This document shows, in pieces, positions 6,588-57,700 of a DNA stretch of 64,000 bases. Under the pieces are notes generated by a model. The model worked only from the letters and a program-made list of their open reading frames with translations, ran no database searches and had not been told where the DNA came from. The DNA comes from Heterotrichella gracilis. Lineage: Eukaryota; Sar; Xanthophyceae; Tribonematales; Xanthonemataceae. The translations under genes were made by a program, and so were the position numbers. How positions within the stretch are numbered: the first letter of the stretch is position 1; each line of letters opens with the position of its first letter. The DNA is taken from contig JAULBX010001447.1 of NCBI GenBank assembly GCA_032358255.1, forward strand, positions 1 to 64,000, written 5' to 3'.

Positions 6588-8064
6588 GGTTTAGGGGTAG
6601 GCGCTGGGACATTCAACCTGGAGCATTTTGGAACCCTATGCGAGTTGGTGCAGTTGAACCACACCCCAGTTTGTTTCCAGTAACTAGTTCTCAGAAGAAT
6701 GTATTTGCAAGTCAGCATGATGCTTCAGCCATTGCAGTAGCTAGAATTCAACACCGGAAGAATTATAGAGTTGAGGTCAAATATGGCGGCACAGCTAGGA
6801 TTGAAATCGTTAAATGAATTGAAATGCTCCGTTGACGGCAGCTGCCACATATTTTAGTAATTTAGGATTTCTATAAGGTACTGTTCTTGAATGTCATTTA
6901 GTGTGACACAACTGATTCTGAAGCAGGTCCTTCCATTCAATGGAAGGGAATGGCCGGGACATCGATGCATCATGCACCGGTAGTGATTGATGCGTAAGAC
7001 ATGCCTTCTGTTGCATTCGTTCTGGCTGGTGTGGTGCCCTGGTGCGAGCCAGTGGCCCCCTAACTACGCCTCTGTGCGTTCCCTTTCTTTCTTTCAGGCT
7101 GCTAGAGGTTGGACGCCATGGCAAACTCTCAAATTGTTCACAAGTAGCTATAGACCGTACACGTGTGACACAGAGTGCCGATCCGGGAAACAGGCCCTGG
7201 CTTGCCAGAACTTCTGCTTCAAGCACATTGCACATACTTCCGGACAAACTGCGTGAATCCAATGCCATTGGGTAATCAGATTCCATATTTGCACTGCCAA
7301 CTGTTGTTACAGAAATTCGCATGATGCAAATCCTTCAACCTTTTCTATGCACTACTCAAGTGATAGCAAGATCTGCCTGATTCAGACAACACTACTGAAT
7401 ATGGTTTCAGGAAGTTCACTGTGAGAAGAGATTGATGTGCTTGGAAGACGTTGTCGTCTCAAAAATTGGAGGACCATGTTGGACCATGATCGGCCTGGGC
7501 ATATGACATAAATGTGGCTAAAGCCAGAGGGCCTCGCAGCAACAGCAACAAAAACACAAATACCAATACTGTTGAAAATGGTGTACGCAAATCATATGAT
7601 ATGCCACAGCAAAAGCGATTAGACTTCCGATGCAATAACATGCGAATACGCTCACATGCATGGGGGAAAGTGGCATCTTAGCCATGTCAAACTGTCACGG
7701 AAACTGAGCATGCATGCAAGCTGCTGCAGCCCCCGGAAAGAACAGAATAGTGAGCAAAATCATGGCCCATCCCCAAAAGTACACAACTGTTTGCCAGCCA
7801 AATCTCAGCGTAAAAGATACCCAAGCCCCAACACCAAAACCTGCTGTTCAGCTGCTGAGTGCTCAGTTCTCTTCTCAAATCACCCCCCCGGGATGGTGCC
7901 CTGCAGAACGAGCAACGGCAGGGGGCCCATAGCTGCGCTGCGGAATTCAAACATCGCGCGCATGCACCTGGCCCCCCGCTGCCTCACTCCTCCCTGGCCC
8001 ATGTCCTGAGGACAAATCAGGGGCCTTGCCCCAGCACGGTGTGCTGTGCGTGGTGCTGCCCGCC
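6588..8064. other. Convergent intergenic region, no gene seen
   Basis: These 1.5 kb separate the 3' ends of the CRM gene and the LCIB-like gene. The DNA is more AT-rich than the exons. Frames of 60-130 codons occur on both strands, but none shows a domain, a signal peptide or matching splice partners. I see nothing supportable beyond presumed 3' UTRs. Confidence 0.5.
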
Positions 8065-11000
8065 CTACTTGGCGATGCTGTTGCTGACGAACTTGTTGAG
8101 CTCCTTGTTGATGTACTCCACGCTCTGCTCCTCGCTGAAATTGGTGAAGGTGTCGGTGTCGAGGCTGATGGAGCCGCCAACGTTCTGCACAGGGGGGGGG
8201 GTTGAGAGTGAGTACCAGGGGAAGCAGAGCGGTTGTGTGGCATGGTAAGAACCGGGTCAGGACGGTGCCAATCTCTATAGCATACGGGGTAGGCAGGTAG
8301 CGCGCATTGCACACTACTGATTGACAAGGATGGACAAGCAGCGCATTGCCCATGGCGTGTGTGGTCCAGATTACACACACTCACACACACTGACTTGCAG
8401 CTTTTTTCCCCCTCACCTCAGCGGGTGCGTCCACCACCAGTCCAGCCTTCCATGCAGGGTCGGAGGGCAACATGGGCTCCAGACCCTCCTCCAGCAGCAG
8501 GGTGCGGTAGCTGGCAGCCTTGCCAGCGGACTTGGTCAGGTTTTCTTGCGAGTCGGTCCAGGAGATCTCCACCTCCCTGATGGTGCCCAAGCCGCCGTTC
8601 TCGCACACCAGGTCCTTGGTGGGCGCGTTGTTGGAGGCCAGCAGGTTGATCTGGCGGGGGGTGAGGGTCTGCGGAGGGGAGGGGAGGGGTGAGGGACAGT
8701 GTAGGTGCATCGTGTGTGGCATGCAATATGGGGCAGGCCATTGGGTACCGCACACCCAAAATGGGGTTACAGTGGCGCACAGCACAGTGTCACAGTGGCG
8801 GGGCCAGTTGGCACACGAGGCAAGCAGGGGTGTTTGCGGCGCCAAGCCCAGGCAAGGCTGGGTGTGTGTTGTGCGTACCGGCAGTGCGCTGATGTTGAGG
8901 TATGTCTTCACGCCGTCCACCACTGTGTAGGCGGTGCTGGGCCACACAAACTCGAAGGTTGGGGATGGGCCGTCAAACTCTGGTCCCCAGTTGTGCACCT
9001 GCACGCCTGTGATGACTGCGTAGTCGGCCTTGGCGGGGTCAACGGCCTTGCTGCATGGGGGAAGGGGGAATCGGTCAGTGACATTGTCAATGCATGGAGA
9101 GGGTGGGACCATGATGGTTGCCCATGTATACATATGGGAACAACGGAAGAGTCAGTCAGGGATATTATCAATGCATGGAGAGGATGCAATTGTGATGGGT
9201 GTTCATGTACACAAAAAGGAACAAACACTCAACACTGCATGTGCCTTTCCAGAGCGTGTGAACCCTAGCCCAGGGTTTTGGTTAAACACGGCGCCCTACC
9301 TGACAAGGTACTCCAGGTCATCGCTGATGGTCCTCTCAGCCAGCTTGGTGATATCCACCAGGTCCATTGCCTTCATGGCCTCCTCGGATGTGCCCTCAAA
9401 GCGCAGGCGGCGGGCCAGGCGCTGCTTGAGGATGGACAGCTCGGGGTCAAGGGGGTCGTGCACTGCGGGGGAAATGGTGGTGGGTGAGGATTGAGAGGGG
9501 AAGGGAGAGGAGTTTTTAGTGCGCATCCCCAGGCGTGGGAGCGGGTCAAGGGTTGCGCACTGTGGGGTGCAAAGAATCTGGGATTAGGGAGGTGTCCAGG
9601 CATGGCATCAATGGTGGCTTTTTAATTCCCCATGCAGTGCAACATTGTGAGAAGGTTGGTGTGCACTTGACAGGGTGCGTACCTCCGGGGATCTTGCAGG
9701 AGTTGGTGATGCCGTTGGCCTTGATCTCACCCAGGGATGCTGCCAGGGCGCCGCATGCGCACGACTCGCCTGGGCGGCCAGGGCGGGAGATGGCGCCCAC
9801 CTTGCCGGTGGCGTCTACAGCAATGTGGGGGAAGGAGAAGAACACGTAGCGCTCCTTGCCGGATCCCTGAAAGGCATTGGGGGAACAAAAGGGTTCAGGG
9901 CCTGCTGAATGTATTTCAGGAATATGCAAGGCAGCTGTAGGATGCTGGCAGCCACCCTTGAGCCAGGGAGATCACTTATCCACACGTGCAGTTTATCATA
10001 CAGTGATTTATACTGCGACGCAGATGACGGCAGCGGGTACGTGTGGATTGGGTACCACGCAGGGTTTTGCAAGGGTCCCGCTGTCTCACCGAGCAGATTG
10101 GCGAGTGGCTGAAGCCTGCCTTGAGGCCGGTCACACCGCAGGTGAGCACACCACCCAGGCCGTTGGTGTTGAAGCCGGAGCCAAACACGTCCTCGATCTT
10201 GTACTTGAGGCTGTTGGTGATCTCATCACGGCACAGGTTGACCATGGCTGTGGGTGAGGGGAGGAGGGGGTCAGTGCTGGGTGCACTGGTGTGGGAACCC
10301 TTCTAGGGTTTAGGGTATGTGTGTGGGTGTGCAGGTGTGCGCTTTCTGCCAACCAGGACAGCAACAATACAATGCAGCCACGCTCCGGCAAGCTCTTCAA
10401 AGGCATATCGCAGTGGTTGCACTCAGAAGGACAGCGTCTGCCAAGCCCCAGGCACAAGCAACATCTCCGAGCATGCCGGGCCTCACCGATGGAGTTGTCG
10501 CCGGTGAAGCCAAAGGCGTACAGCGCCACCTCCACGCGGGAGATGAAGTCGTCGATGCCCATGGCGCCGTCGAAGCTCTCGTTCACCACCTTGGCGCGGC
10601 CAGTCACGTAGGCCTCTGCGGCGTACTCCTCCTTCACCAGGCTCCCGGTCTTGGCATCGTTCTTGAACAGGGACCAGAGACCGTTCTGGGCAGCAGCCTG
10701 CACTGGGGCCCTGGAGAAGCAGAGAGAGGGACGGGTTAGGGGCAGGTTGCGGCGAGGGACAGGGAGAGTAGTAGGTGTATTGGTGGGTTTGCAGACGACA
10801 GGTGGGGCGGAATGGAGGCATGACAGTGAGATGGGGGCCTTGCGACGAAATGCGAGAAGTGCAGGAGAGCTTGAAGCAGTGCACTATACTTGCAATAACA
10901 AACCAATCTGCCGGAAGGCTTTTTTGGTTGGGAACTAGCATACTTCTGATAGCGTGCACTCCAAGATAGGGTGTTGGAGAAGTTTGCTGGTGGCCGACAG

Positions 11001-11188
11001 ATCGCCCAACAAAACCCGTTGCGAGACTGGCAGGGTGGTACATTGTGCGCGTTGGGCACTTACTTGAAGGAAGAACGAGACCTGGTGCGCAGTGGGACAG
11101 CTGCCAGGCCCTTGGAGCCCTTGGTGAAGCTGCCCTGGGTGCTCGTGGGCAGGGTGCTGGTGGGTGCCATAGTCTGTGCCATCACCAT
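8065..11188 (-). CDS. LCIB-like theta-type carbonic anhydrase, plastid targeted
   Basis: Eight exons: 11188-11064, 10710-10487, 10247-10090, 9866-9683, 9462-9300, 9050-8879, 8668-8417 and 8184-8065. All phases fit and give 465 aa. The first about 42 residues are Ser/Thr/Arg-rich with almost no acidic residues, as in a chloroplast transit peptide. The LCIB/theta-CA core is clear. LCRDEITNSLKYKIED holds the likely Zn ligand Cys122 beside Asp124; GLGGVLTCGVTG follows. FFSFPHIAVD holds the His ligand (about 183), and CACGAL the second Cys (about 207). DPELSILKQRLARRLRF is another family block. LCIB proteins interconvert CO2 and bicarbonate in the stroma of algae at limiting CO2; the beta-CA-like metal site is known for the family. 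The C-terminal part from about residue 343 (TLTPRQINLLASNN onward) I cannot match to the core. Whether it is an active enzyme or an LCIB/LCIC-type partner cannot be read here. Confidence 0.9.
9068..9225. repeat. Intronic tandem duplication, period about 81 bp
   Basis: Within the intron between LCIB-like exons 9300 and 9050, gtcagtgacattgtcaatgc and a diverged copy (gtcagtcagggatattatca) begin about 81 bp apart. Both run into caatgcatggagagg at 9088 and 9169. It is one of several short tandem duplications in introns of this window. Confidence 0.75.
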
Positions 11189-13261: not shown

Positions 13262-16200
13262 TCAACCCGTGGTGCGCAGCGCAGGCAGACCCGCCTTGAG
13301 CCCACCCAGCGCCTTGCAAACCCCGTCCTCGTGCACCTTGTCCCACCGCTGCACCTGCCCGCCATCCACCAGAGGCCCCGCCCCCTCACCCCTCTGCCAG
13401 CACGTGACATACAGCAGCTGGAGCTGAGTCAGCGAGCTGAGCTGGCATATGGCACTGGAGACCTGGCCCTCGCTGGTCGGCAAGCACAGGCCCAGCTGCA
13501 ACCTGGTCAGCCCAGTGAGGGTGCTGAGGCAGGCCAAACCTTGGTGGGAGCAGTAGGTGAGGGGCAGGTGCAACCCTTGTAGCCGTGTGAGGGTTTGCGT
13601 CCACAGCTGCAGGTGGGCGTCTCGCAGCAAAGGGGGTTCGCGGTCGTGGGTGGGCTGGAAGGTGAGCTCCCTCAAGGTGGGCGGTAGGCGGAAGGGGGTG
13701 TGGCCCTCCTGTGCTGGACCTGCAAGGGGTTCGGGTTTCTTGTTATCAATTAACGATGTTTCAATACTATTTTCATGGGGTACATGGGGCACAGCACCCT
13801 CACCTGGGTCCGCAACTCGCAATGTCAGTTGAGTGAGGCGCGCCAGGCCACTCAGTGCATCCTCGCACAAAGCGCGCTCCACCTCAGCTACACAGTCCAA
13901 CATCAGCTCCCGGAGACCGGTGAGATGCCGGCAGATGCTGCGGAGGCCTCTGCTGCTGCACGTGTCAGCCGGACCATGGCCATGCCTGCACAGCAGGGCA
14001 GGGGCAGGGTGGTAGGTTGATGGGAGAAACAACAGGATGGGAAGCATGTAGCGCTGATGTACAGGTATATGTGTGCGGCTGTCCCCCATGGCTCTGGCAG
14101 CTGGGAATGGTTGATTATACATACTGTACATCAAGGTGGGTACCATCGCCTGGCATGCATGGGGTCGTTGCCCAACAGGCGCCACCACATGCCCAGTGGC
14201 TGGGTGGATATGTCAATTGGAATGAACAGTAAATTTGTTTCTTGGAATTGTTCAACTGAATAATGACAATACACAAAAATAATTACGGTACATAAATTTT
14301 CATTTGTACCTTGGGGATCCGTTGAGCGTGAGACTTGTGAGGCCTGCCAGCTGGCGGCACATGGCCTCTAGCCCCTGGTCGCTGACCCCCTGTTGCCCCT
14401 CGGGACCAAAGGTGATCTCAAACTTGGCGAGCTTGGTGAGCTGAGCAAAGCACTCCAACAGACCAGCGCACACACGCACTGCACCCAGGCAAGTGAGTGG
14501 GTGGTGACTTGTTCTCACTACTCATGACTTAATTGTCACAATGATCAGTATTGCATTCCACAACCCAGCACGGTACCAAGGTGCGGCTAACACTGTATCC
14601 CAGTATACTGCGCAGCGCTGTCCCCAGTGTGGCAGTCAGGTCCCTTCCTTCCATCACCGCAATACTCATCTTTTTACCCCACAGGGGGGCAAAAAGGCGT
14701 GAAAGGAAGCAGGGACAGATGTGCCTACGCTATTTCATGCCAGTGACTGCATAGACATGCAAGGCAAAGTGGGCTGCAAATTGAAATGCATGTGGAGGGG
14801 GAACTGGGCCCTGCCCAAAGTAGTACGGGGAGGAGCATCACCACCCGCCCTGGCACGTTAGCCAACCCCGCACAAGCAACATGGCCACCATGCTATTCTG
14901 TGATTTCAGGCACACACAGCTCCTTCACAGTTCAAACCCAAACACCACGACTAGGGTTTCTCCACACGCACCTGGGCAATGGATGGTCAAGCACGTGAGC
15001 GAGGTCAGCTCAGACAGAGGGCGCACGTCGGTGGCGACCTCGTACTCCTCCAAATCCAGATTTACCAAGGTGGTGGGCCGTGTGGGCCCCAGCAGGCTGG
15101 CAATCTGAGTGTCCAGCCTCCGGCCCCACAGGGAGACAGTGAGGCGCACGCCTGCGCACACCAAAGCCCTGGTGAGGGTTCTGGCAGGGTGGTGGTAGGG
15201 CGAATTGCGGGGATTGCAAGTGCAAGTGCAAGGGCAGACTGGTACTGCAGGTGATAGGACTTTTTATGAGGCTGGCGGGACCACCGTTTCGCACATGCAG
15301 GGTGACCCATGGAAAATAGGAATCGCAAGGGTTTCCCTTGTTGCTAACCAGGGTATATGCCTGTGCCCACCTCCCGCGCTGACCCTGTCCCAGCAGTGCG
15401 CCACGCTCACGTTTGTCAGGCGGGTGCGCTATGTTAGGGTTTAGGGTTTAGGGTTTGGGGTTTTGCCTCTGCCTACCTGCTGCGCTGACCCTGTCCCAGC
15501 AGTGCGCCACACTCACGTTTGTCAGGCGGGTGCGCTGCCAGTCAAGCTGGAGCTCCGTCAGGGAGGGCATGCCTGTGAGCACGACAAACAGCACCTGGTA
15601 GCCAACTCCGTAAACCCAAGGAAATATCAGGGCTTAGGCCCTAGGTTAGGGTCTGCATTGGACATGGCGAATACTTTGCTTGCTCCATGAAACTGTGGTT
15701 GGTTACACAAAGCACATCCAATTCCCTTTAGTGCTGGTGGTAGGGGCCATAGCGGTGCTGAAGGTGCACAATGACTACAACCCTAAATTCTAAACCTAAA
15801 GCCGAAACCTTGAACCCTACACAATGTTGAAAATGCACGCCCACTGTAAAGTCCCCTTTGCTAGGCACCTACTGATTGGACTTGACCACTTGGCAGCACA
15901 GATCACGTAAGTTTGCATGACAAGCCGAAACCCTAAACCCTCCACAGTGCTGTAAGTGCACGCCAGCTAAGACAGCGTACGCGTCCCACCTGCCACCGCC
16001 AGGAGGGTTGCGTCCTCCACCAGCATGGGCAGCTTCAGAAACTGCAGGCTGGGCAAACCCTGTAGGGTAATCAGGTCGTCCTCCCGCGCGTTGTCCCCCG
16101 CTTGCATCTCAAGCTCCAGGTGGCGCAAGCTGGTGAATGGGGCCAGCAAGGGGGAAAGCCGTGGCCAGGGGAGGGCAACGGGGGGCCACGTGGGGGGGAC

Positions 16201-17206
16201 CACCGCGTACAGGTGGGTGAGGTGGGTGGTGGGGAGGGCGGTGAGCAGGCCTTCGAGGGGGAAGCGGGTGATGGTCCCGGGGATTAACACTGCATCCCCG
16301 AGGTATATCTCAAAATGCTGCAGCTGGGATAAACTTGCCAGGTGGGTCATTTCAGAGTGCCCGGCAGCGCAGTAGAGCTGAAGCTTGGTGAGGGCGCTCA
16401 GCGGGGTGAGGCATGCGAGTCGGGATTCATGATCACCACCACCACCACCACCGCCACCGCCGCCACCACCGCCAGACTTGACCTTCACGCTGAGCTCACT
16501 GATGGATGTCAGTAGGCTGACCGCCTGCATGGATGCCACAGGGGCGCCTCGGGACACGTCCAGGTAGACTGATTCGAGCCATGGCAGCCTGGCGAGGAGC
16601 CGCATGCCAGCCTCTACCACCCCTTGATCGGTTTGGGAGGGGAGGGTGAGGTCCAGCTGGCGCAGCAGCAGCAGGTCCTGGGTGCGAACCTGCAATGGGT
16701 GTGGTTAACCCTACTTAGGGGGGGGTGAGCACGTGCATGGGGATGGGTACGTACCAACCAGCGAGAGTGCCCGGGAGGATTACCCTGGCAGGTGTACTTC
16801 CCGGAGCTCCCTAGGGGAGATGCATACAGTGTGAAGCTAGACACGCAGGTGCAAGACGGCACCAAGGGTAATAAGATTATACTAGGGCTGTTATTATCTT
16901 ATTACCCTTGACGCAACCCTCCCAGCAGTGGCAGCTGGGCACCCCTTCCCCTGCCAGCGTGCACCCCCAGCAATGAGGTCCCTGGGATCGCACCTGGGCA
17001 AGCTGCTGGTGCCAGGTGTCGAGAGCTGGTGAGCTGGCAGGCAGGCACGTGGCGTGCACCCTGTGCATGCAGCGCAGGAGCACCTGGCTCCATGGCTTGC
17101 ACACGCTGCTGCAGGGCACCAACTCACGTGGCTTTAGCAGGCGCGCCACCTCCTGCGGTGCGTTGTGCATACCACCAGGTTTTGGCATCAAGATAGGACT
17201 GCGCAT
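13262..17206 (-). CDS. F-box-like / leucine-rich-repeat protein
   Basis: Proposed exons are 17206-16994, 16689-15990, 15572-15477, 15151-14972, 14478-14310, 13985-13804 and 13719-13262. Phases agree and give about 665 aa. The N-terminus reads APQEVARLLKPRELVPCSSV followed by CKPWSQVLLRCM, a degenerate F-box (P-x-E-V, then the V-C-K-x-W motif). Repeated LRR-like units follow throughout, for example LTSISELSVKV, LSALTKLQLYC, LAGLTSLTLNG, LTGLRELMLDC, LARLTQLTLRV and LTGLTRLQLGL. Such proteins usually act as SCF ubiquitin-ligase substrate adaptors, the LRRs binding the target. About 13 consecutive Gly residues, encoded by a CCACCG-type tract at 16436-16472, interrupt the second exon. The start is uncertain: ATGs at 17206, 17188 and 17170 are in frame, and a micro-exon near 16800 is possible. 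Codons are GC-rich, like the neighbouring genes. Confidence 0.78.
15361..15535. repeat. Duplicated exon end and splice donor around a TTTAGGG tract, period 106 bp
   Basis: On the plus strand gctgaccctgtcccagcagt and the following bases at about 15379-15430 repeat almost exactly at about 15485-15535. On the coding (minus) strand the second copy is the real 3' end of exon 15572-15477 with its GT donor. The first copy is a decoy lying further down the intron. Three TTTAGGG units (15434-15456) lie between the copies. Confidence 0.9.
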
Positions 17207-28221: not shown

Positions 28222-30750
28222 GCTCTTGTGACCAAGGAGGTGGCTGCTGGGCCACGCTCCAAGTGGGGGAGCAACCTGCAGGCACTTCCCAAAGGCAGTT
28301 GTCAGACAGCAACCCCAGGTGTAGGTGGGCTAACAGAGGGTGGCCAGCAACCTTCAACAGAGGGTGGCAACAAGGCACAACGCCATGCGGTCCCTGGGAA
28401 AGAGTGTTGCACAACCAAGGCACAGCTGTAGTAGACATCAAACCGTGTTTTAAGGTAGTAGAGGAGTTGGGTCGAGCAGTCTGGTGCAGACAGAATACCG
28501 TGCACTGCTGCTGGCAGTGTGAGGCACTTGAGTGTGCCACAACTTCTGCTCACCGTGGTCTGTGGAACTGTCTTGAAACAGTGAGCTAATATCTGGAACG
28601 AAGCGGTCTCTGCTATGAGCGAAGGGCCTCAGTTACCAGGCAGTCACCTGAGGAGCACGCTGTGAGAAAAGCAAAGAGTCAGCTGGTGCACAAGAACGAA
28701 TTGAGCGGCCGTCGTAGAACTAGCTCCTGGCGAGCGAGACATGCTCGTGGTGTTGCGCGACGAAGTGGGCTCGAGGAGAGGCTGGAAAAACAACAAGGTG
28801 GAACGGCCCAGCGGTTCTGGAAACGGAGCATGATCACCTACACGACTCACTGACAGTCTAGGATACGCCTATGTAACAACAGGCAGCCCTTGAAATTCCG
28901 TGCTGCGTGGTAAACGCCCGGACTGCCACAGCGACTGTGCCCAACACAGCAAAACGCGGTAAAATTGAATGCGCACGACAGAGCGCCGTCGATCAACCAA
29001 ACTCTGAGATGTCAGCAGCGCACGGATGTTGCCACGAAGAGCCCACAACATAGGAATGAGCTAGTGGGCTTCAGGTGTCTGAGAGGGCCACAACCCTCCT
29101 ACTGAAACCTCCTGATCTGTTCCCAAACCCTCCGCCTGGCCGGCAGAACGCCCACACGGCAATAGCGGCTCCAGATTCCGTACCTGGTGTGCTGTTCTCG
29201 TGCTTCACGGCAAGGAAAGTATCGCTGTGCGGGTGGCCTGCAGTCAGCGATGTCGATGGCAAAAAGTACCAGCAAGCTATTCACTAGGGACGTGAGACGC
29301 TACACCTCGGCGGGTTGCGGTCAGACAGGGCAGCTACAGCACCACTCTCAGCAGCGAATACCAAGTTTATTCACGTCAATGTGGCCATTAACCGTGGGGT
29401 GTGCAGCAGCAGGCCGTGCTTTCACTGAAAGTTTCAGGAGCACCCCGCTGCACTGGCGAGCAGAGTGTGTGTGGACGCTGAGCCTGATTCGCCCCCAGGC
29501 AGAAAATTTGGAAGCTCATTCAAAAGATCCCGCTGGCAGGCAGCCACCAGGCCCCGATCTTCTGACAAGCTGGGGCACGTGCTTGCACTCTGGTCATCGT
29601 CCACCTCATAAAGTGACACCCGTGGCATGAATTTGCTGTATCAGATACTCTACAACGTGATGCCCCTAAGCCTCGTCGCCAGGCGTTCGAACCGATCGGC
29701 TTGCGTCAGCAAAGGTGGCCTGAAGCCATGGTTCAACGCATTCAACTGCAATGTTTTCATGGCATTGAATTGCAGGAGCAGGGCTATCGTGGCACAGACC
29801 CCCAGGTGTCACACTTGCAAGAGCTACAACACCTGCCGAAGCCCCATTCAGCTGCCAGGGTTCAGCATCTACTACCTGTTGGATATGCATGCATCGGCCT
29901 TCGCTGCGTCAGTGACAAGGAGAGGGTAGGGTTCCAACTATAATTGGAACTATTGTATCACAAGCAGCTGAGCTGCACATTTTGTGCCTTACAACTGGTA
30001 GACATGGGTTGTTTGGCGGGAACCCGTGGTGCCATGCTGCAGCAAGCAACAAAGTTTGGTTTAACCACAGTTCTTTGGTTATCCCAGTCACTGAATGCCT
30101 TTCGATGGCACTCTCCACAGACACTTATAGAAGTATATCCGCGCCCAACACTGGAATTGAATTTATTTTTGATATACCAATCGTCAACCGTTCCATGGCT
30201 GAAACTTGGAACATGAAAATCAAACTAAACTACAAAGGAAAGGGTGTACACAACTCCTGATTGGCAGGCTGGGAACTAGGCCTGTCAACACTGGCCTGAA
30301 AACACTGCAACAACATAGAATTTCTCCAAAATGTTGCCAAAAATATAGCAAAAATAGCGTAGAAGGGATAGACAAAAAGACACCAACGTGGTAGACCCAA
30401 ATTAACTCAATTATCTGTGCTAACAAACAAGGGGGAAAAGCTCTAAGACGACCAGTTACTTCAAAGCAAAACATTTGTGGGTTGATCAGTCACATAATGG
30501 ACACATAGTCCCCACAACAAAAAAATGCAATTATCTGACGCAACTGGGCCAGGGATAACAACTGCTCACTTAGCTTTGGCATGCGGCGCAGTGGGTCCGG
30601 TTGGAAGGCAGCAGTGAAGGCCAGCACTACCATTTGCTCCTCGGAAGTTGCATGCATTGCATTTCCCACCGCTGGCCCATGGCGTGATTTCTCAAAACCT
30701 GTAACCCTAACACTGAACCCAGCTCCAGGCTGCGGCCTTGCTGGTGCCGC
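28222..30750. other. Intergenic region, no gene seen
   Basis: This 2.5-kb gap lies between the DCC gene start and the 3' end of the MJ1316-F-box-WD40 gene. The longest frames (for example plus 29187-29630 and plus 29627-29929) have no recognisable domain, no signal peptide and no splice partner. A remote or lineage-specific gene cannot be ruled out. The left end should hold the DCC gene promoter. Confidence 0.45.
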
Positions 30751-33700
30751 CTAGCGCGTAGATCGTTTGGGGTAGCGGTTCCGCCGCTTGGGCAGCTTCT
30801 TCTCCTTCTTTTTCTTCTCCACCCTGTCGCTGTTGTCCCCAGAGTGGGAGTCGCTGTCGTGGCCGGCGGCGGCTGCGGGGCCCGCCATGCGCCACATGCG
30901 GCACTCACTCCCGCTCACCCCCGCAAGCAGGGTGGTGTCAACAAACTGTGGGCAAAATTGGCACCGAGGCTTTAGGGTCAAGGAGTCAGCCGGGAATTCA
31001 CAAACTGGCAAAGGGCGGGATGTTGCACATCCGGCTCATCTGGGCAGATTTCCACATGTGTATAACTTGACCCCAAAACAAGTTCAATTATTCAGGTTCA
31101 CATGGGCTTGAAAGACAGGAATGCATGGGAGTGGACACTGTTGGCGCGTGCATCTCATCAGGGGGACAAATGTGACTCCAAATGCGCCCGTGCTGTTGCA
31201 CCTAACACACCCCACCTGGAAGCAGTTCACCCTCCCCTCTGCCGCAAACTCCATGAGCGGGCCCCCCACCCGCCCCGCACCCCCCACCGCCCTCAGATCA
31301 TGCAGCGTGAGGCAGCTGCCCCCAAAGGCAGTCACCAGCTTCCAGTCATCAATCTGCACGCCAGCGGGGTAGGGCGCGGGGTCGTCCGGCGCTGTGGAGG
31401 TGGGTGGCGGCAACACCACTGCCACGCGCTGCCCGTTGCGCACATCCCACAGGGCGATCGACCCTGCGGTGCCTGACGCGACCAAGGAGCCTGCGTGGGA
31501 AAACAGGGCTGCGATCAGCGGGTTGTTTGATGAAGCTTGTGTGGAGGGATATGGCGCATGGAAAATCCACCTCCACCCGGAACCCTGCCCAGGTACATCA
31601 TTTTGATTTTGAACTCTAGAAATATAAGGAGTGCAGTCAGCGCCAGTGGGAGGCTACTAAGTGCAGCAAGCTTGGTGTGGGCCAACAGCGCCCGCCACAT
31701 TCACAGCACCAGTATCCCCTGCCACTCGGCCGCACCTGCCGTGGCCACGCAGTTGAAGGGCTGCATCCCCTCCCCTCCCCCCACCATCATCTCCTCCCCC
31801 TGGTCCTCAAGGGGCGACGCCAGTCGCTGCAGCCGCTGCATGGTGGCGATGTCCCACAGGTCAAGGGACCAGCCGGCACTCACAAGCTGGGCAGTGGATT
31901 GGCGCACCGCAAGCGCATGCACCGCCGCGCCCACGTCCACCCACGTGATGGTGCTCCCCTGTGCAGGAGGGAAAGGCGATTAGCAAGGGCAGCAATGTTT
32001 AAAGCCTCCGGAGCTCCTGTCGCAAATTGAGGACAATAGGGCCACGACACCGGGCACTATGTTGCCACACGCGACATTGTGCCAGCAAGAACAGGGGTCT
32101 CACTCCCGCGCAATCGCACCGGCGTCAACCCATGGTGGGTTCTTGGTAGGAGGAGGGAGAGCGAGGTGGTCATCCACACCCTCACCCACTACCAACCTTC
32201 ACATCCCCTCAACCTCCCGTTCACTACCACGCCTCCGCACCCATACCCCACCCATGCCACCCCCACCCGCACCCACCTGGCGCACATCCCACACCCGCAG
32301 CGTGCCGTCCTCCCCGCCGGAGATGGGCAGCCCCTCGTACAGCTGGCAGGCCCCCACCCCCGCCACGTGGCCCCGTAGCACCCGGCTGGCCCGCAGGTCG
32401 TCCATTGACCAGAGGCGCATGGCCCCCGTGGTGTCCCCCGCAATGAGGTGGTCGTCGTCAAAGGCAAGGCAGGTCACGCGGCCAGTGGGGCCCTGGGGGA
32501 GGGTTGGGGTTGTTGTGTGGGTGCTTGGGTGGGGGTGCAGAGGTTTGACAAGCGTAGGGTATGGGTATCCGGATGGGATGCCTTTGGCAACAATATTGTA
32601 TGCTCAGTAGCATGTCAGCACCAGCCGTTCGTGGCAAATTCCCACACATTCACTCAGCCGAAACTACCTATAGGTGGCAATGCGCTCGCAGCACAATGCA
32701 TGGCCTGTAAAACGCACCCCAGCGCACCCCCGCCACACTGACCCTACCCCTGAGCCCCCTCCTGCATGCCTCACCTCCCGGCGCAGCGTGCTGATTCGCT
32801 TGCCCGTGACGTGGCTCCACAGCCGCACCACGCCCCCGTCTGCACTGGCCACCTTGGTTGGATCAGCCACCAGGGAGGTGGTGCTGGGCCAGCCACAAGG
32901 GGAGGAAACGGGGTGCGCCTCCAGCCACCTGGCGGCGGTGAGCGCACTCCGGCGGCACTGGCGCCTCACCTGGGAGGGACAGCAGCGTGGTCAGCGGGGG
33001 CTGCCTGCGCATGCTGCTGTGTGTACTTGATTTCTGTCAAATGCATTGGACTTTGGCATTTGACTGGCCGTGTTGAATTTCAGTAACATCGGTCGTATTT
33101 CAACATTAGGAAATATATTCAAATCAATATTTCAATGAGATTCATGGACAAGGATGTGCAGTGCAAGTGGCATGGCAACCATGCAGCCGTTCATATGTGT
33201 GGTCAGTGCTATCATCAATGCACCACGACTGCATTGGATTGCAATGTTGCCTCGTCAGCACAGAAACCACACATCATGGATGCCACGCCACCCTAAAAAG
33301 TGCACCATCACCAGCAGGCTTGCACACTGGATTCGCATGCAGCATGCCACCTTGGCGCACCATCGGGTGGTTCATCTGCTCCGGCGGCTGCGCCCCAAAG
33401 ATGTTGGCATAGGTATCCGCCCACAGCTGCTCACTTGACACCACCTGGTTGAGCCAGCGGCAGGTGCGCGCAAGCATGCACAGCTCGCGCACCCCGCAGT
33501 GCGCCATGGCGCCGTGCCACAGCTCCCGAGGCAGGTCAAGGGCGGTGCTCTCGGGCGGGGTGGGGTCTGCTGCTGTACCGGGCTCTTCCTGGCCTTGGGG
33601 GGGCGTGGGGAGGTCAGCATCAGAGGAGTCGGTGCGGTGGAGCGAGAGGGCCTGCATGTGGGGATTGTGGGCCGCGCTTGGGATGGGAGTCAAGAGATGT

Positions 33701-35178
33701 GGCAATGCATTGGTGATCTCTATGCATGTGGGTGGCTGTGCAGTTGCTTTCAAATTGGCAGGGGGGGATGGTTGGTGGCAAAGCCGGCATGGATCGAGAC
33801 ATGGCATGGCCGGCGCAAGCTATGTTACCTCAAAGCTGGTGCCCAGTAGGGAGGTGGAAGAGGTGGGTGGCTTGGATGGAGGCAGGGGGTTCTTCACCGA
33901 CTTGGCATCCCTGCACCACACCCAAAGAATCGAGTCTGTCAAGGCATGCACCGTTTATAACTCCATGCAAAACTGTTTTATGGGCGAGTGCGCAATGTAT
34001 GGCAAGGGCTAGTGTCCATACAGCTGCACATGGTGCTGTCTGGTGCTGGTGCTGTGCTCACCAGACTATGCCGTCAGGTCCCTTGAAGTAGGCCACCCGG
34101 TGCCAAGGCACCTCTGCCTCGCCCCACATGCCCTCCAGCTCCGCTGCCGGCACCTCTTTCACCACCTCGTGCACACGCAGGCTCCATGCCTCAGCGCCGC
34201 TCTTCCGCTGCCCACTCTCCACGGTGCAGACCATGCCCACCTGTATGGAGAGCATTTTGAGTACAAGCTCCACTCTGCATGGCTATGTGTGCTGCCCATA
34301 ATGCTGTGGAAAGAGTGACAGCCCTTGAGTATGTACTGAGTACAACTGAGGTGCTGCCGCCATATGTGATGTTTGGTAAGGTACAAGGGGGTTCCGTTTA
34401 GGGCCACATGTGGGCTGACCTGACCCAGCGCCAGATCAAACTTATATACGCAGCCAGGACCAATGCTGGCGACGGGTGTACAAGCTGGCTGTGACCTAGC
34501 TGTATTGCTGGCAACTTAGTAAAGGAACTGACTTACTGATGTGCTATGAGCCCCTAGGGTTACTGCTGGTCCTGTGGCACATGCAAGGCATGCCAACCTA
34601 GCCCGGGCAGCGCAGTGTGTACCTGCTGCCGATACAAACCGTATACCCCTGCGGATCTAGGTTAACCCTCAAGAACTAGATCCCATAGGCTTCACTAGCG
34701 CCCAGTCAGTTACTTGGGTTGACCCAGATCGAGACCAAGTTAGTGAGCTCTGTCAACAAACAGTCAGGCGTTGCAGCGAAGCGCATTTATTGCATTTAAT
34801 GCACAGATCGCCGGGAGCATACTTCCCGAGCACCGCCCAGGGGGGAGAGAGGTGGGCAGTTTGTACACATGCAGCTGTCCTAGTCACATCCTGTGCGCTC
34901 ACCGTGTAGCTGGCATGGTCAAGGGAGTCATCATAACGCAACCTCGACCAGAACCTCTTCGCAGCGTAAGCTACTGATCCCTTTCTGTACGTTGCCTCAG
35001 ATGACCCTCCCTTCCAGCTGCCTGTGCCACTCGGGGAAGTGCCAAACACGCCAGAGTCTCCTCGCCAAGAGCCAAGAGGGCTGGACCCAGAGGGACTGAC
35101 TGACCCAGCCAAGCGACAGTTTTCGGCACTCCCAGACCTTGTTAGCACTCGGCTCAAAATGGGAAGGGGCGAGGACAT
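30751..35178 (-). CDS. MJ1316 (RNA cyclic-end recognition) - F-box - WD40 fusion protein
   Basis: Nine exons: 35178-34903, 34240-34062, 33910-33829, 33651-33361, 32969-32775, 32492-32277, 31958-31736, 31490-31216 and 30945-30751. Every phase fits and the total is 643 aa. Residues about 75-155 form an MJ1316/DUF504-like domain: RFWSRLRYDDSLDHASYTVG, then EVVKEVPAAELEGMWGEAEV with PWHRVAYFKGPDGIVWD. These are its R-L-x-(W/Y)-D, L-D and IPxHRI-x-G-x-(V/I)-W blocks. A Pro/Ser linker leads to an F-box at about 216-260 (LDLPRELWHGAMAHCG, ARTCRWLNQVVSSEQLW). WD40 blades follow from about 300, ending VRLWSHVTGKR, MRLWSMDDL, LRVWDVRQ, LDLWDIATM, ALWDVRNG and CRMWRM. The tail is very basic (KKKKEKKLPKRRNR), possibly nuclear. 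F-box/WD40 proteins are SCF substrate adaptors. The MJ1316 domain is thought to recognise 2',3'-cyclic phosphate RNA ends. The ATG inside the acceptor at 33657 would give a shorter F-box/WD40-only protein. Confidence 0.82.
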
Positions 35179-35862
35179 CTTGGCAAGGTGTTGCGCACCG
35201 GAGCGAAGGTAACTACTGGCGCATTGGTCAACGTGGGCGGTTTGTGGGCAGAGAGGCGCACAGACAGACAACGCCGGTTCACATTGGAAGAGGTTTGGCA
35301 GCTAGCCCTACGATGTGAACGTGTATGGCTTGTACTATTGAAGTACCAGTGACGGGGTTTGGTGCGTTGGTCCACATAACCACTCGAGCAGCTCACTCCC
35401 AGCATATTCTTCGCGATTTTCAAAAACAATGTGCATCATTTAAATTCAAATTCGTGATTTTAAAAACTTTCTTGGAAAATGGGCTAACAAACAGCTTACA
35501 GAGAGTGCACCAACCATCAACTGCTCTCCTTCACTGGGGCACATACTGAAGCCATCAGCTGCGTGCTGTTGTTTGGCTGCAGCACCATGCTGCTGAAAGT
35601 GGTATTTTCTGTGGCGAGATAATAGCCATGTCAGGTCATAGCGTGCATTATGCCTTACCAATGGTCACAGCGCACCTACACCATCAGCGTTCAAAGGTTA
35701 CACCGTCACAATGCCAAGGACACAGCAACACGTACATACCACCGCACCCAAACCCCTGCTTGCATACACCCCACCCTGCTGCAAGATACATAATATTATT
35801 GAAAAACTGCTGCGAGGTAGTAGGAATGCTGCTGCTGCTAGCGCTGCAGGTGCTGCACCGCC
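35179..35862. other. Intergenic region, no gene seen
   Basis: This region lies between the MJ1316-F-box-WD40 start and the 3' end of the Pro/Ala-rich gene, both on the minus strand. It should contain the promoter of the former. I see no frame with support. Confidence 0.5.
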
Positions 35863-37734
35863 CTACACCTTGCCCTCCCGCAGCTTCTTCCGCAGCCGCT
35901 GCTTCTGTGCCTTGGTCATCTTCTGGCCCCCCTCGCCCAGGTCATCGTCATCGGCTGTGGCGGTGGTGGTGGTGGTCATCTTCATGGTGGTCTGCGTGAC
36001 CGTCATGGTGGTGCTGCCCTGGTTGAGCGTCATCTGGGACATGGAGGTGGCCACGTCGGTGTGGGTGGTGGTGGGTGGGGCGGGGCGCGCGACAGGTGCG
36101 GGGGCAGGGGTGGGCGCGGGGCGCTGGGGGGCAGCCATGGGTGTGTGGTACTCGGGCCGGTAGAGCTGCGCGGGTGCGGGCGCTTGGTAGTAGTTGGGTT
36201 GCTGCGCGATGGGCTGGTGCAGCCTTGCGGGTGCAGGTGCGGGCGCGGGGCTGCCGTTGGACCCTGCAGACCTGCGTGGCGCACAAGCAAGTCGGAACAG
36301 GCTTTGTGTGTGCACGTCCAGATGCGTCCCAAGATGCGCACTCTATTGCTGCGATTTGGGTCCTCCACGATTGACCTCATCTCATCCCCGACTTTGGATC
36401 TCAATTCCACCCACCACTTGCCCCTACCGCCGTTGTCCAATTTGCCACACTGACAGTCAAGTGACGAGGCGTGCATGCAAAGAATCCACTGATGTACGGT
36501 GTGCCACAAAATAAGGGACTTGTGTCAATCAGGTACACAATTGACCTGATCTCAACCCCGCCTTTGAGTAGTGAGCAAGCGCAAACACACCGCTCTGGCC
36601 ATGCCATGGACGTCTGATGTGACGTGGACTGTGAAGGCACGCCAGCTGCTCACCTCAGGTGTGGCGCCACGTAGGAGTTAGGGTTCACGGGCACGTGGGC
36701 CGCAGGGGCAGGGTGAGGTGCGGGAGATGCGCCATACGCCGGCCGATGGCTGGCATGCCCTGCAGGCTGGCTCTGGTAGGCCCTGCCCCCGCCATGCGCA
36801 GGACGAGGATCCTGCGTTTGAATCACATGCATTTTGGCGCCATGGTATCAAATACCAATGCCGGTTGCTGTTGTTTGCTGCTGCAGTTCTCTGGTTGCAT
36901 TCAGGCATCAGCACTAGAGGATGCTGCGACAATCGCATTTGCTGGACGCAGCGGTGTTCGCAGTAGTAGAGTTTCATGGACGATTGTTGCCACTTATTTG
37001 CAAGGTCACCACCCTGATGCAGGGTTGTAGACACGCACCTGTCTGGGTGGGGCCCGGTACTGCGCTGATTGATATGCGTCACTGTGCGGGCGCCCCACAG
37101 GTGCCACCAGGTCGATATCGTATTGCTGCGGGGCCAGGCCAAACAGTAAGATGGACTGGGGGATCATATAGCCAAGACTGGGGTAGAAAAATCATCCTTG
37201 CAGCCAACCACCTGTAGCTGGGCATTTCCACTCAAATAACTTGGTGCTGGGCAGCCTTTGCAAGCCTGCCCAGCCGTGCACGTAACATAGCCGGGGTTTT
37301 GGTGGATAACGTTGTATTGCCTGATGCAATGTGCCACTGCTCCTTACCGCAACAGTGGGTGGCTGCACCATGATTGGCCTCTCAAAACGCTTCTGAGGTG
37401 GATGTGCGATGTAGCCAGAACCAACCACGTTGGGGTTCTGCACACAAACAACACAAAAAAGGGTTGGCATTGATGACATGTGGCGGTGTAGTTGCAGAGG
37501 AGGAATGCACCTACATTTCAGCCACCGGGTACTTGCACAGCGAAACACGCAAGAAAAAAACACTGGCGCAAAAGAACGGAAAGACGCGTTCTTTAGTGGA
37601 TGTGTTTGGTGGCGTAGCTCACCCCAGGTCTCAGTTGGTCCATGCCTTCAGGTGCTTACCTCGATCTTCATAGTCATCAAATCAATCCTTTCCTGCTCCG
37701 TTAGAGCCTTGCCGGTATGCCGGTTGTGCGACAT
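35863..37734 (-). CDS. Pro/Ala-rich hypothetical protein with basic C-terminal motif
   Basis: Five exons: 37734-37660, 37437-37348, 37125-37039, 36811-36654 and 36271-35863. All phases fit and give 272 aa. The N-terminus MSHNRHTGKALTEQERIDLM continues into MKIENPNVVGSGYIAHPPQK. This looks like a short folded or interaction motif and is the best-conserved-looking part. The middle (about residues 85-200) is low complexity, rich in Pro, Ala, Gln, His and Tyr, with PAPAPAPARL and YYQAPAPAQLYRPEY. A Thr/Met-rich stretch (TTMTVTQTTMKMTTTTTAT) and an acidic DDDDLGEGG lead to a strongly basic end, MTKAQKQRLRKKLREGKV. I do not recognise the family. The composition resembles RNA-associated disordered proteins, but that is only an impression. 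The gene is divergently paired with the S28 gene. Confidence 0.72.
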
Positions 37735-51771: not shown

Positions 51772-54700
51772 ATGCACAGAGACAAACATCGTGGCGCTTT
51801 GGGCGTCGGGTTACTATTGGTGGTCTGCGCTGTCGTGGCTTCGGAAGGCGTTGACATAGACAAAAGTAAGGATGGCAGCCACCCTTTTGCCTGAAATGGG
51901 ACTATGTGTTACACAGACACGCGAGGCCATTCTACTTGCCAGTCGTATCAGGTGCCGAGGTGAATTGTGATGTGCATGCATATGGCATGCATGCACCGAC
52001 CCGTTTGAGGGTTTAAAAGGCCATCGTCGTTCCACTTGGCAGATACTGCTCGGGAGCCTTGTTTTCAAGTTTTTTAGCTACAAGTATATTTTTTGAAGCA
52101 ATAGGTCCAGTTTTTATGCAGGGTAAGTTTGCAATGCGTAAACTGCCATGCCCTCCCCCCGACAGTCCTGCTGTCCACTGTTTGTTCTCGTATCCCTTTC
52201 TTGCGTGCCCAAGTTGTTGAGCTATTCCCCCCCTCGGTTTTGGTTTTCCAAGTCTGCATCTGCATAGCGCACAGACCCGCAACCTGCACTCCCGCTTGTG
52301 TGCACACATCCACAGATTGGTGCTGTTGCCACCGTGGCCCTTTTCCTCCTCGCCGCCCCCGTAACCTCGCCAGTGCCCGTAATTGTAACCTGCACCTATA
52401 CTAACCACGGTGTCACCCACTTGCCATGGCTGACCCCTTCCTTCCGTTCCTCCGCCTCCAGTTTGCCCCAACAGCGTTGGAAACAACGACCCCTTCTGCT
52501 ACAACGGGGGTACACTACAGGGTGCCAACAACACTGACCAAACCAACTGCGCATCCTGCGACTGCCCTGATGGCTGGGGAGGGGTGGACTGCTCAGGTGG
52601 GTTATGGCAAACCCTAAACTCTAATCCAAAACCCTAAAGTTAACTGTAATAAAGATTCTGCCCCGGCGGAGGACCCTGGCTTGCAGCAAATTGCCTTAGC
52701 GTTCAAATCCCAGCACACCACATAAGGGATTGCAGGGGAAGCGTATGAGCTGGGTGTGTTGTTGGGGACAGCATTGCAACCACCAGGGGCTGTAAGCGCC
52801 CCTGCATATGCAGGCTATGGAACGTCCTCCAATAATGTGCCACACGCTTCTCCTCCCCACCCGCACCCCCACTCCCACCCTCACCCCAATCCCCTTCGCA
52901 TGCAGTCCATGTGCCCCCCTGCCACACGCACGCCAACCCCAATGACTGTCAACTCCTCAGCCAGCTGACCCTCTACCGTGTGTTCACCACAGTGTGCAAG
53001 GAGGCCGAGGCATGCCCACAAGTGCAGGACCCCACCGGCGCCTGGATCCCCGCCCGGTCCTGCGACACCACCACCATCAACCCCTCAGACTACGAGATGA
53101 CGCGCGGCAAGACCCTCTCCTGCACCTGCGGGGGCATCGAGGGCGACCAGCTGTCTGAGTATGCCTGCAAGCTGCAGCCTGAAACCAATTGGATGATCCA
53201 GATCCATGGGGCGGAGTCGATGGATGACTACCGGGCCAATGGGCTGTCAGCATATGTGGTTGAGCGTGCAGGGATGCCCTCCCAGGACTTTGTGGGGGAC
53301 TGCGAGAAGTATAAGAAGATTGGCATGGTGCGGGGAGGGGAAGGGCAGGGTGGGTGTTTGTCATTTTTTGGGTTGTCCTTGCGCAGCGGTGGTCTGGCGC
53401 TGTGCGCCTGGATGCAGTGGGCTGCTTTATTGGATGACTTTGGAGGTTTGTTTCTGTGCGAGAAGTGAAAGACAGGTACTTCAAGGTCATTTAATTGATT
53501 GGTGTAGAGAAGTAATTGTTATCCATTGTTCTAAAAAGCAATGTTTATAAATATCATTTGATTTATCATGCACGCCTTCCTGTGCCGCAGGGCTGCCCCA
53601 CCACAGAGAAGTGGCGCTACGCGTATGCGGGGGTGTGGGAGGGCAACTTCACGCACTGCAGCTGGGGACCAGGCCCCTGCACCGCACCCATGACGGGGGA
53701 CGACTGCCTGGTGTACACATGCGAGGGGGTGGAGGTGGAGTGCCCTCCGTCATGTGAGTCTCACCCTACTAGGGAGATGCAAGGGTGCTGTTGACGGGCA
53801 AATCTGCACATGCCCATCACGGCATGTGACCACACCCATGTGACCACGCTCGCCACCTCTTCCAGGCGCCCAAGTGCACATCTTTTCATTGACCCCAGCT
53901 CTTTTATTAAAAGCCATCATATTGTAAAATTTTATGGCTTTAAATGAAGGTTTTGGGCCAATGGATAGATGTGCACTTTGGCAGCCCTGAAAGAGGTGGT
54001 GGGTGTGTAAAGTTGCCAAGCGCACACTTATTCGTTGAACCAATAGCCTTTCTTGTGAAAATTGGTTGTAGCATGCCAATGCCACTTAATGCCAACTAAA
54101 CGTAGGGGCGCCCAAGTGCCCCGGTTGGAAGACCACCGCCTGCGCCCGGCCCGAGGGTGAGCCGGAGCCCTACTACCAGCACCACTGCAACCCACTCACC
54201 TACCCGATGAACGACCACAAGCTGTGGCTGGCATGCAAGGCGGACCAGCTGAACGGCACCAACGGGCCATACTACCAGTGCTACATCTCGCAGGTGGGTG
54301 AGGTTCTGGAATAAGCAACTAGAGGACTTGAGTAGGGTTTTGGCAGGGTTTGGTAGGGTTCCTGTAGGTGTCTGCAAGCAAATGTGGTTGTAACTGCGAG
54401 ACGGGGCTTGGTATGAAATTGTGAACTGCAGTACAGTCGTGGTGCGTTTTTAGCCAGATGAGCGCGGGTATGCATCGCCCCAGTTCGACAGCCAATAGAC
54501 TTTTAGTATCCAGATGTTGGCCAGCCATGCTGATCACTGTACTTCTATTGACCTCTTTCACCCGGCGCTTGGTCCGCATGGGACCTAATAGTTTACCATT
54601 GCACCAATTTGTTTGTGGATGGTACAATGCTGGACCCCTGGATTAAACCCCCTCACACCCTGCCCCCCCCTCTTGCATGCTTACATGACATGACATGACA

Positions 54701-57700
54701 TGACATGACATGACATGACATGACATGACATGACATGACATGACATGACATGACATTAGATTACATTACATTACATTACATTACATTACATTGCATCACA
54801 TTACATTACATTACATCACATCACATCACATCACATGCATGCAGGTGGGTCAGCTCCTGGGTGCGGTGGGGCTGCAGTGCATCACAGGCACATGCAACTA
54901 CGAGGCGCCAGCACCACCACCAGCCCCACCACCGCCACCCCACTGGCGCTGGATGCACCCCGAGGGCGCGGCGATAGTGGCGGTGGGGGTGGTGGCGGCT
55001 GCGCTGGTGGTTGTGGCCGCCCTGCTGATCAAGCGGGATGATGACAAGAGCAAGGCGTTTGTTGGGCAGTGGGCGCACGGTAAGGGTTTTGATAGGGTTT
55101 AAATGCGACAATTGCAAGAGTTTGGGCGGACGGTGAGGGTTTGGGCCTTGTTGTAGGGTTTGGGCATGGTGAGGGTGTGTGTCACAATTGCATAGGGTGC
55201 CAGTGCAGCATCTCCTGCCCGTGACCGCTGCTCAGTGGATGTTACTGGGCTCCTCACTGCCAAGGTCTGTATGTACATCATGTGACTGGATGATACATGT
55301 ACATAAGACATCCATTTACACCTGTAATCAAAGGCCTCCTGGTCTGTAGCTCCATTTCCAAGCCCAACCAAAATCAGCATTTGGAACATGTCCACCCCCT
55401 TTGTAGGGTGTCGCTGGCCTGGTATCACAGCCACTGAACAGGCTTTAATGGATGTATTTGTTGTGCAGGCCTGGCTGATCAGTTGCTGGATGGCGGCGAC
55501 ATGTCATTGGATGCGTTTGATGACCTGGTTGGATCGGGGCAGGCGGGTGTGCGATCAGTGCTGCAATGGGTGGACATACACTACAGCGTACCACTGGTGC
55601 GGATGAGAAGCCTCGCCAGTAGGGCAAATTGTATCATACTCTTGTCTGGTCTTAAAGATAATCGAGATATACTGCAAAAATGCAGAAATAAATGCTGCAT
55701 GTTGCAGCACCCTTAGCTGTCAGGGATATGGCTGATGCATGCAGTTGATTAGGTAGTGGCTTGCATTCCAGCAGTACAGCCAGATTAACAACCTGTCTAT
55801 GAACACCAATTAGATTACCTGATGCACCAGTCTCCTCCTTTATCAACCTGCAGGGGTACCAGGGCACAAAGCACATTCTGAAGGGGGTGTCGGGAATCGC
55901 CGGCGAAATGCCAGACTCCGGCACCAACCACAGCATGCTGGCCATTTTGGGCCCCTCGGGCGCCGGGAAGACCACATTGCTTGACACCCTGGCGGGCAGA
56001 AAGGACCCTGCTGGGCTCTCGGGGGACATTTTCGTCAATGGGCACCTGGTCAGCCCCCGCCAAATGCGCCACCTGGCAGGGTGGGTCCCTCGGCATTTGT
56101 GCCCTCTGGGGTGATATGTGGTTGCATGCGTTGAACAATCGAACATATGCATGGCCAGCTGGCTGCAATCCCAAGCAAGGAATTGTATATGATCCCTTGC
56201 CTTGTGGGCACCCTACATACACCCTCATAGAGTTTTTGCAAATTTACACCCTGATGGCAATTCACCCTGAGTTCGGTTTTCTGCCTTAGGTATGTCCTCC
56301 AAGACGACGTCCTCCCCGGCACCAGCACTGTGTGGGAGTACCTGCAGTTCCAGGCCACCCTGCGCATGGGGGCGGGCAGCAACCAGCGGCAGCAGGACGC
56401 ACGCATATGGCAGGTGGGGGGCTGGGGGCTGTTTGCATTCTGTGGGGGGAGCTGCAAAAGGGGCGTGCGCTGTTGGGGGCTTAGGATTGTCCCACTTGCG
56501 CGTGGATATTTACCAGAGGCTTTAAGGATGGTGGTGGATGTGCAACTGAACGCATGTCCACCGGGCTTGCCTTTAGCCATTGTGGCTTGGTCACATTGCA
56601 AATCATTGGACATGCTGATTGTGAAAATTGACAGCGGTCCAGGATCCCTGGTTCCTTCACCCGCAAAATGGGCGCCACCTGCACTTTTGTCCACTTCCTC
56701 AAATATCAGCATACTCCCTAGACCACACCACCACCACTGTTTACCCTTGACACCACACCACCCTCCCCCCTCTCCCAGGTGATGAAGCAGCTGGGCTTGA
56801 CGCGTGTGGCGCACAACCAGATAGGCAGCGAGTTCAGGCGGGGCCTGAGCGGTGGTGAGAAGCGGCGCGTGTCCATTGCGGTGGAGCTGCTGACATCACC
56901 CGCGCTGCTGTTCCTGGATGAGCCAACCACGGGTAAGGGTAATCGGCCCACAACCACGCATGTCCCATACCACACATCCCAAAGCTAGTGGCCTAATATA
57001 GTATTGTATTGTATGTTGGTGACTCACTGATGAGATATAAGTGATGGCTGTACACAGTCCACCAAGTGCCTACTGCGTGGCAAATAGGTCCCATGATCTC
57101 CTAGGCCCTCTCGCCCCCCAATTAAGGCCTGCGATGCACCTGCTCTGTTCTCTCTTTGGGCCAGTATGAATAACCCTCCCCCACTACCTGCAGGCCTTGA
57201 CAGCACCAACGCTGCGCGCGTGGTTGACATCCTGTCCCACCTGTCCGACTCTGGAGTGAACGTGGTGATGTCCATCCACCAGCCCAGGCCAGATGTGTTC
57301 AGGCTCATGACCCGGGTCATGCTGCTCACAGGAAATGGACAGGTGGGTGGGGAGGGTGTGTCTGGGGGGAGGGAAGATGAGGGAGCTTCATTTCAGGCAG
57401 TGGCCAGGGGTGTGTGGCATGTGGGAAAGGCAGAAGTGTTGCCTTGCTTGGCGTCGCTTGTGCAAAGCTGGCTGCTAATCTGACTGTATTGCTGTGATGC
57501 ATGTGCAAAGATAATCATAGTTGGCTCGCATTGCACTGATGGCCTTTCTCGCCGACTGTAAGTACCATCACGCCTTGCCCTTAATACGCTCCCCACATAT
57601 TTAAAGACAGTGCCCCCCTTCTCCAGGTTGTGTTCAGCGGGCCAGTGAGCCTTGCCGCCACCTACTTTGCCGAGCTTGGCTACACCCCTGATGACCCCTC

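Follow-up and report, generated by a model that had tools for sequence, protein, structure and literature searches.

Does the locus at 30751-35178 encode a single protein in which an MJ1316 domain is joined to a ubiquitin-ligase receptor, and what might such a protein do? F-boxes dock on SKP1, and WD40 propellers hold substrates. The first-pass annotation of the window (by which we mean the whole stretch of 64,000 nucleotides that was analysed) had placed an MJ1316 domain ahead of both, and had suggested that the product could couple RNA damage or repair to ubiquitylation. Our analysis supports the architecture MJ1316, F-box and WD40 in one predicted gene, on the strength of homology, of reading-frame phase and of a gene finder that had not seen that gene in training.

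The window comes from a genome assembly of 68.5 Mb in 903 contigs. Nine exons on the minus strand (35178-30751), all with GT..AG borders, join in phase to give a frame of 643 residues followed by a stop codon. Exons, phases and borders are all as originally described, and by their Pfam positions the three domains follow one another in the translation in the order that had been proposed. The components of the gene are collected in Table 1.

Table 1. Exons of the predicted gene, and the intron at the point of fusion.
Feature	Position	Strand	Content
Exon 1	34903..35178	-	Residues 1-92; ~70 N-terminal residues Ser/Gly-rich, the final 18 opening the MJ1316 domain
Exon 2	34062..34240	-	MJ1316 core, with E-V-P-W-H-R-V and G-I-V-W; gene-finder coding posterior 1.0
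Exon 3	33829..33910	-	W-D end of MJ1316 and Ser/Thr/Pro linker; +0.47 bits per codon
Intron 3 (fusion point)	33652..33828	-	In-frame TAG 33822-33820, in-frame ATG 33657-33655
Exon 4	33361..33651	-	Linker and F-box (residues 217-258)
Exon 5	32775..32969	-	WD40 region begins
Exon 6	32277..32492	-	WD40 repeats; part of the stretch with the best FBXW7/FBXW11 match
Exon 7	31736..31958	-	WD40 region
Exon 8	31216..31490	-	WD40 region; gene finder favours acceptor 31508 (31490 posterior 0.32)
Exon 9	30751..30945	-	Last WD40-like strand (by reading), Lys/Arg-rich C-terminal tail, stop codon

A search of the translation against profile models for the three domains had been set beforehand as a check; MJ1316 and WD40 pass their cut-offs, and the F-box falls marginally short. 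In the Pfam search of the full protein MJ1316 (PF04457) is matched at 34.1 bits against a cut-off of 26.3 over residues 75-153, and the domain is therefore recognisable within the first 155 residues, as had been claimed. WD40 (PF00400) is found C-terminal to the F-box at 37.2 bits (cut-off 27), and many WD40 propeller models, each under its own cut-off, span parts of residues 299-522. The F-box-like model PF12937 scores 24.0 bits over residues 217-258 (E 3.3e-5), 0.3 below its cut-off of 24.3, and the F-box model PF00646 scores 16.8 bits against a cut-off of 20.5. When the N-terminal part is scored by itself, exons 1-3 give 36.9 bits for MJ1316 and exons 1-2 alone 35.0 bits; the score without exon 1 is 24.7 bits.

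Can exon 1 be accepted? It has a codon usage of -0.33 bits per codon, compared with +0.36 to +0.56 for exons 2-9, and the gene finder omits it (posterior 0). The GT donor that closes the exon is in phase with exon 2, and residues 75-94, 18 of them encoded by exon 1 and two by exon 2, reach 15.7 bits on a profile of the MJ1316 N-terminus made from 24 bacterial rows (this omits loci L081 and L080, the latter because of a gap). Read unspliced into the intron, the same site scores 11.3 bits. This ranks first among the 70,786 open 20-residue segments of the window, where the runner-up reaches 6.4 bits, and it exceeds all 192,678 segments from a further 18 stretches of 10 kb in the genome, where the highest score is 7.7. 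From the sequence we accept the final part of exon 1 as genuine; the first ~70 residues are unproven and, like the start ATG, unsure because the codon usage of the exon is negative.

The arrangement of the exons into genes was analysed with a simple home-made hidden Markov model, iteratively self-trained on 180 kb of other contigs and on the 57 kb that remain of the window once 29500-36500 is removed (~237 kb in all), the gene under study being excluded. The trained gene finder predicts 53 genes with 293 introns, having donors close to CAG/GTGAG and CAG acceptors; it contains no untranslated regions. Three of the five neighbouring models that were scanned have Pfam matches over cut-off. The neighbourhood includes, on the minus strand, a gene for an LCIB/LCIC-type carbonic anhydrase of the carbon-concentrating mechanism (7880-11188; 256.8 bits), a type of enzyme in keeping with a green alga, and a possible second F-box protein, with leucine-rich repeats (13262-17170; both matches under cut-off). 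On the plus strand a long gene model at 52116-64000 appears by reading to contain two tandem ABCG-type transporters in one frame.

The unconstrained best path of the gene finder is one gene, 30751-34255, in which an MJ1316 exon is spliced to the F-box exon. When exons 1-3 are imposed, a single gene is preferred over two by 5.98 nats (about 6), and the lead is 4.0, 2.3 and 2.6 nats when the gene and stop priors are multiplied by 3, 10 and 30. The full nine-exon model lies 35.6 nats under the best path, 31.8 of these arising from exon 1 and its intron.

On paper the locus could also be divided into two adjoining genes. If intron 3 were left unspliced the MJ1316 part would stop two codons past exon 3 at the in-frame TAG, giving a protein of 181 residues that ends F-E-V-T-stop, and an F-box/WD40 gene could start at ATG 33657, in frame and just ahead of the exon 4 acceptor. 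The donor of intron 3, GAG/GTAACA, is indeed the weakest of the eight, at 3.6 bits where the other seven have 6.4-12.4, and the Ser-rich N-terminus reads as a possible organelle targeting peptide, such as a separate protein might well carry. Against such a division, the gene finder gives posteriors of 0.999 for intron and 0.0008 for intergenic sequence at both 33800 and 33750, and two genes are better under none of the four priors. They would moreover be separated by a gap of 162 bases, which is unusually short, since among 16 gaps separating predicted genes on the same strand just one is as short (149; the next is 665). We therefore consider two genes unlikely. Two signals that might have borne on this choice were put aside. 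TGTAA was rejected as a poly(A) signal, as it occurs within 700 bases of 20 of 43 stops, and the reversed control gives 23 of 43. Certain T-rich words are enriched after stops; the 162-base gap has none while the true stop has one within its first 162 bases, but the argument was dropped because the four words are also missing over that distance after 17 of the 43 predicted stops. Its removal lowers our estimate for one gene slightly and raises that for two.

The best path itself corresponds to another form of the fusion, whose start, ATG 34255, lies within intron 1 and which skips exons 1 and 3, so that a truncated MJ1316 would be carried on the F-box/WD40 protein. Exon 3 has a gene-finder posterior of only 0.04, acceptor 33682 being preferred in its place. 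Omission of exon 3 conflicts with the homology, however, because the W-D motif is broken and the Pfam score of the N-terminal part falls to 31.0 bits, and to 18.8 bits in the gene finder's own form where exon 1 is dropped as well. Moreover, this start would discard the exon 1 block that ranks first in the window, and we regard it as improbable.

Relatives of the protein were sought in non-eukaryotic collections, a scope in which absence says nothing about other algae. The algal MJ1316 domain found two rows among plasmids, one of which is a true relative, from Calothrix, at E 0.3. With this as lead we obtained 27 bacterial loci and seven plasmid records. No relative of the algal domain was confirmed among viral contigs or genome contigs. 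In phages the algal domain picked up three rows, at E 3-5, and the Calothrix query picked up none. Viral contigs yielded no relative for the F-box/WD40 half. NCBIfam gave no match, and two rows from a PDB search, at E 1.5 and 9.4, were taken as chance. A search of the alga's genome with the algal domain recovers the three exons that encode it, together with a single row at E 0.145. PF04457 and the Calothrix domain each gave 0 matches in the whole of that genome, but both miss even the known split gene, so further MJ1316 genes may be present.

Of the 27 bacterial loci, 24 were used in the alignment of conserved blocks and 20 in a residue count over close rows. One short bacterial MJ1316 protein, a 97-residue open frame (L080 1501-1737), has G-P-D-G-I-V-W in common with the alga, and also a longer middle part. 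The family blocks are P-[WY]-H-R and V-W-D, and the algal domain keeps both, as P-W-H-R and V-W-D. By the numbering of Calothrix it has threonine at the column of R29, and alanine at those of R55 and R67. R29 and R67 are arginine in 20 of 20 close bacterial rows; in a wider set of 12, which includes L081 (23.4 bits, under the PF04457 cut-off), arginine is found in nine, 11 and eight rows at positions 29, 67 and 55, respectively. From this conservation, R29 and R67 are probably family-defining arginines. In addition, the alga has 25 residues where Calothrix has six between W43 and P50, a net insertion of ~19 before P-W-H-R.

How far, then, can a function be assigned to the MJ1316 domain? The first-pass annotation associated the family with recognition of 2',3'-cyclic phosphate RNA ends. 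This is stated in PMC6514570; in PMC9425974 such recognition is termed predicted. For the algal domain cyclic-phosphate binding cannot be assumed, because R29 and R67, nearly constant in the bacterial relatives, are missing, and their loss argues against the standard function of MJ1316. With arginines common in the family gone, the domain may bind RNA differently or bind a protein. The sequence leaves RNA-end binding possible but not established, and a protein-binding role is a serious rival. Indeed, within one fused gene the domain might have decayed or been repurposed away from RNA ends, and now provide a protein-protein surface or be a leftover. The three substitutions and the enlarged segment ahead of P-W-H-R are what might be expected of this, yet the conserved blocks are retained, the PF04457 score is still over its cut-off, and exons 2-3 are open in frame with positive codon usage. 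We judge decay or repurposing to be somewhat unlikely.

The best natural matches of exons 4-9 in the PDB are FBXW7 (104 bits) and FBXW11/FBXW1A, with designed WD40 proteins scoring higher still. The same genome contains a match to SKP1 and matches to cullins. It also contains an RNA_lig_T4_1 ligase domain (contig C824), of the kind present in plant and fungal tRNA ligases, and matches to RtcB in pieces that apparently represent two intron-split genes (G000:C7:110618-115148 and G000:C739:111765-113747). Both kinds of RNA ligase may occur in the alga. The genome data hold a third RtcB, on contig C1, which is likely of bacterial origin. This contig (894,458 bases; loci L054, at C1:20001-30000, and L076) itself looks bacterial, with a GC content of 0.357 over the 10 kb inspected, densely packed long open reading frames and an intronless RtcB. 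By reading, its proteins look like those of Bacteroidota, and the assembly may include an associated bacterium.

The explanation that we favour, with a probability of a little under one half (about 0.48), is that a single nuclear gene encodes a substrate receptor of an SCF ligase, in which MJ1316 is a probable tether to RNA or to an RNA-protein complex; this is a single case in one species. The predicted F-box would dock on SKP1, and the WD40 propeller would bind a protein substrate. MJ1316 would bring the ligase to RNA or to an RNA-repair complex, and a protein that sits on RNA after its cleavage or processing could thereby become ubiquitylated. The original suggestion that RNA damage or repair is coupled to ubiquitylation is partly supported, in that the fused architecture is supported and SKP1, cullins, RNA_lig_T4_1 and RtcB occur in the genome; the coupling we only infer, and the loss of R29 and R67 counts against it. 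A more specific version, in which the ligase is gated by RNA-end recognition, the receptor settling on a cut tRNA or RNA end so that the bound protein is destroyed, seems to us distinctly doubtful. If true, it would mean that RNA damage in algae leads directly to proteolysis.

A fusion of MJ1316 to an SCF receptor would make a candidate ubiquitin ligase of an RNA-guided or RNA-damage-guided type. It is a small protein that is open to testing, with separate candidate domains for RNA-end binding, SKP1 and substrate, and the two lost arginines mean that the algal domain can be used to test which residues MJ1316 needs.

How does the protein compare with known systems? Like the FBXW receptors FBXW7 and FBXW11/beta-TrCP it has a predicted F-box followed by a WD40 propeller, and unlike them it has an additional MJ1316 domain at the N-terminus. 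It also differs from FBXW7 in lacking the arginine triad, for in alignment domain 3, and in one register only, T, T and G face the three FBXW7 arginines that we take to be the phosphodegron-binding triad. With the MJ1316/DUF504 family (PF04457) it shares an above-cut-off match and the P-W-H-R and V-W-D blocks; it departs from that family in the two common arginines, in the insertion of ~19 residues, and in being partnered by F-box/WD40 rather than by RNA-processing enzymes.

In the cyanobacterial relative from Calothrix (P0001; L019 2992-5967), encoded by a plasmid of the conjugative type, MJ1316 is again the N-terminal part of a protein with several domains. There it precedes an exo/endonuclease/phosphatase, a 2H phosphoesterase and a poly(A) polymerase, and a role for MJ1316 on RNA ends fits this order; the partners in Calothrix are thus RNA-end enzymes. 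Zinc fingers of the kind that accompany MJ1316 in LENG9 act on RNA. Among eukaryotes, PMC6514570 describes diverse fusions of MJ1316 to RNA-repair domains, as well as a fusion to a C12orf65-like release factor, and PMC9635633 describes LENG9, in which MJ1316 is combined with a CCCH zinc finger. Within the available text of the open-access literature on MJ1316 and cyclic group end recognition we found no description of a protein joining MJ1316 to F-box/WD40, and as far as that literature was searched this is an F-box/WD40 receptor with a new N-terminal domain. In the C12orf65-like protein and LENG9, as in the alga, MJ1316 behaves as a movable module of a eukaryotic protein, but where their partner domains act on RNA or translation, the partner in the alga is a ubiquitin-ligase receptor.
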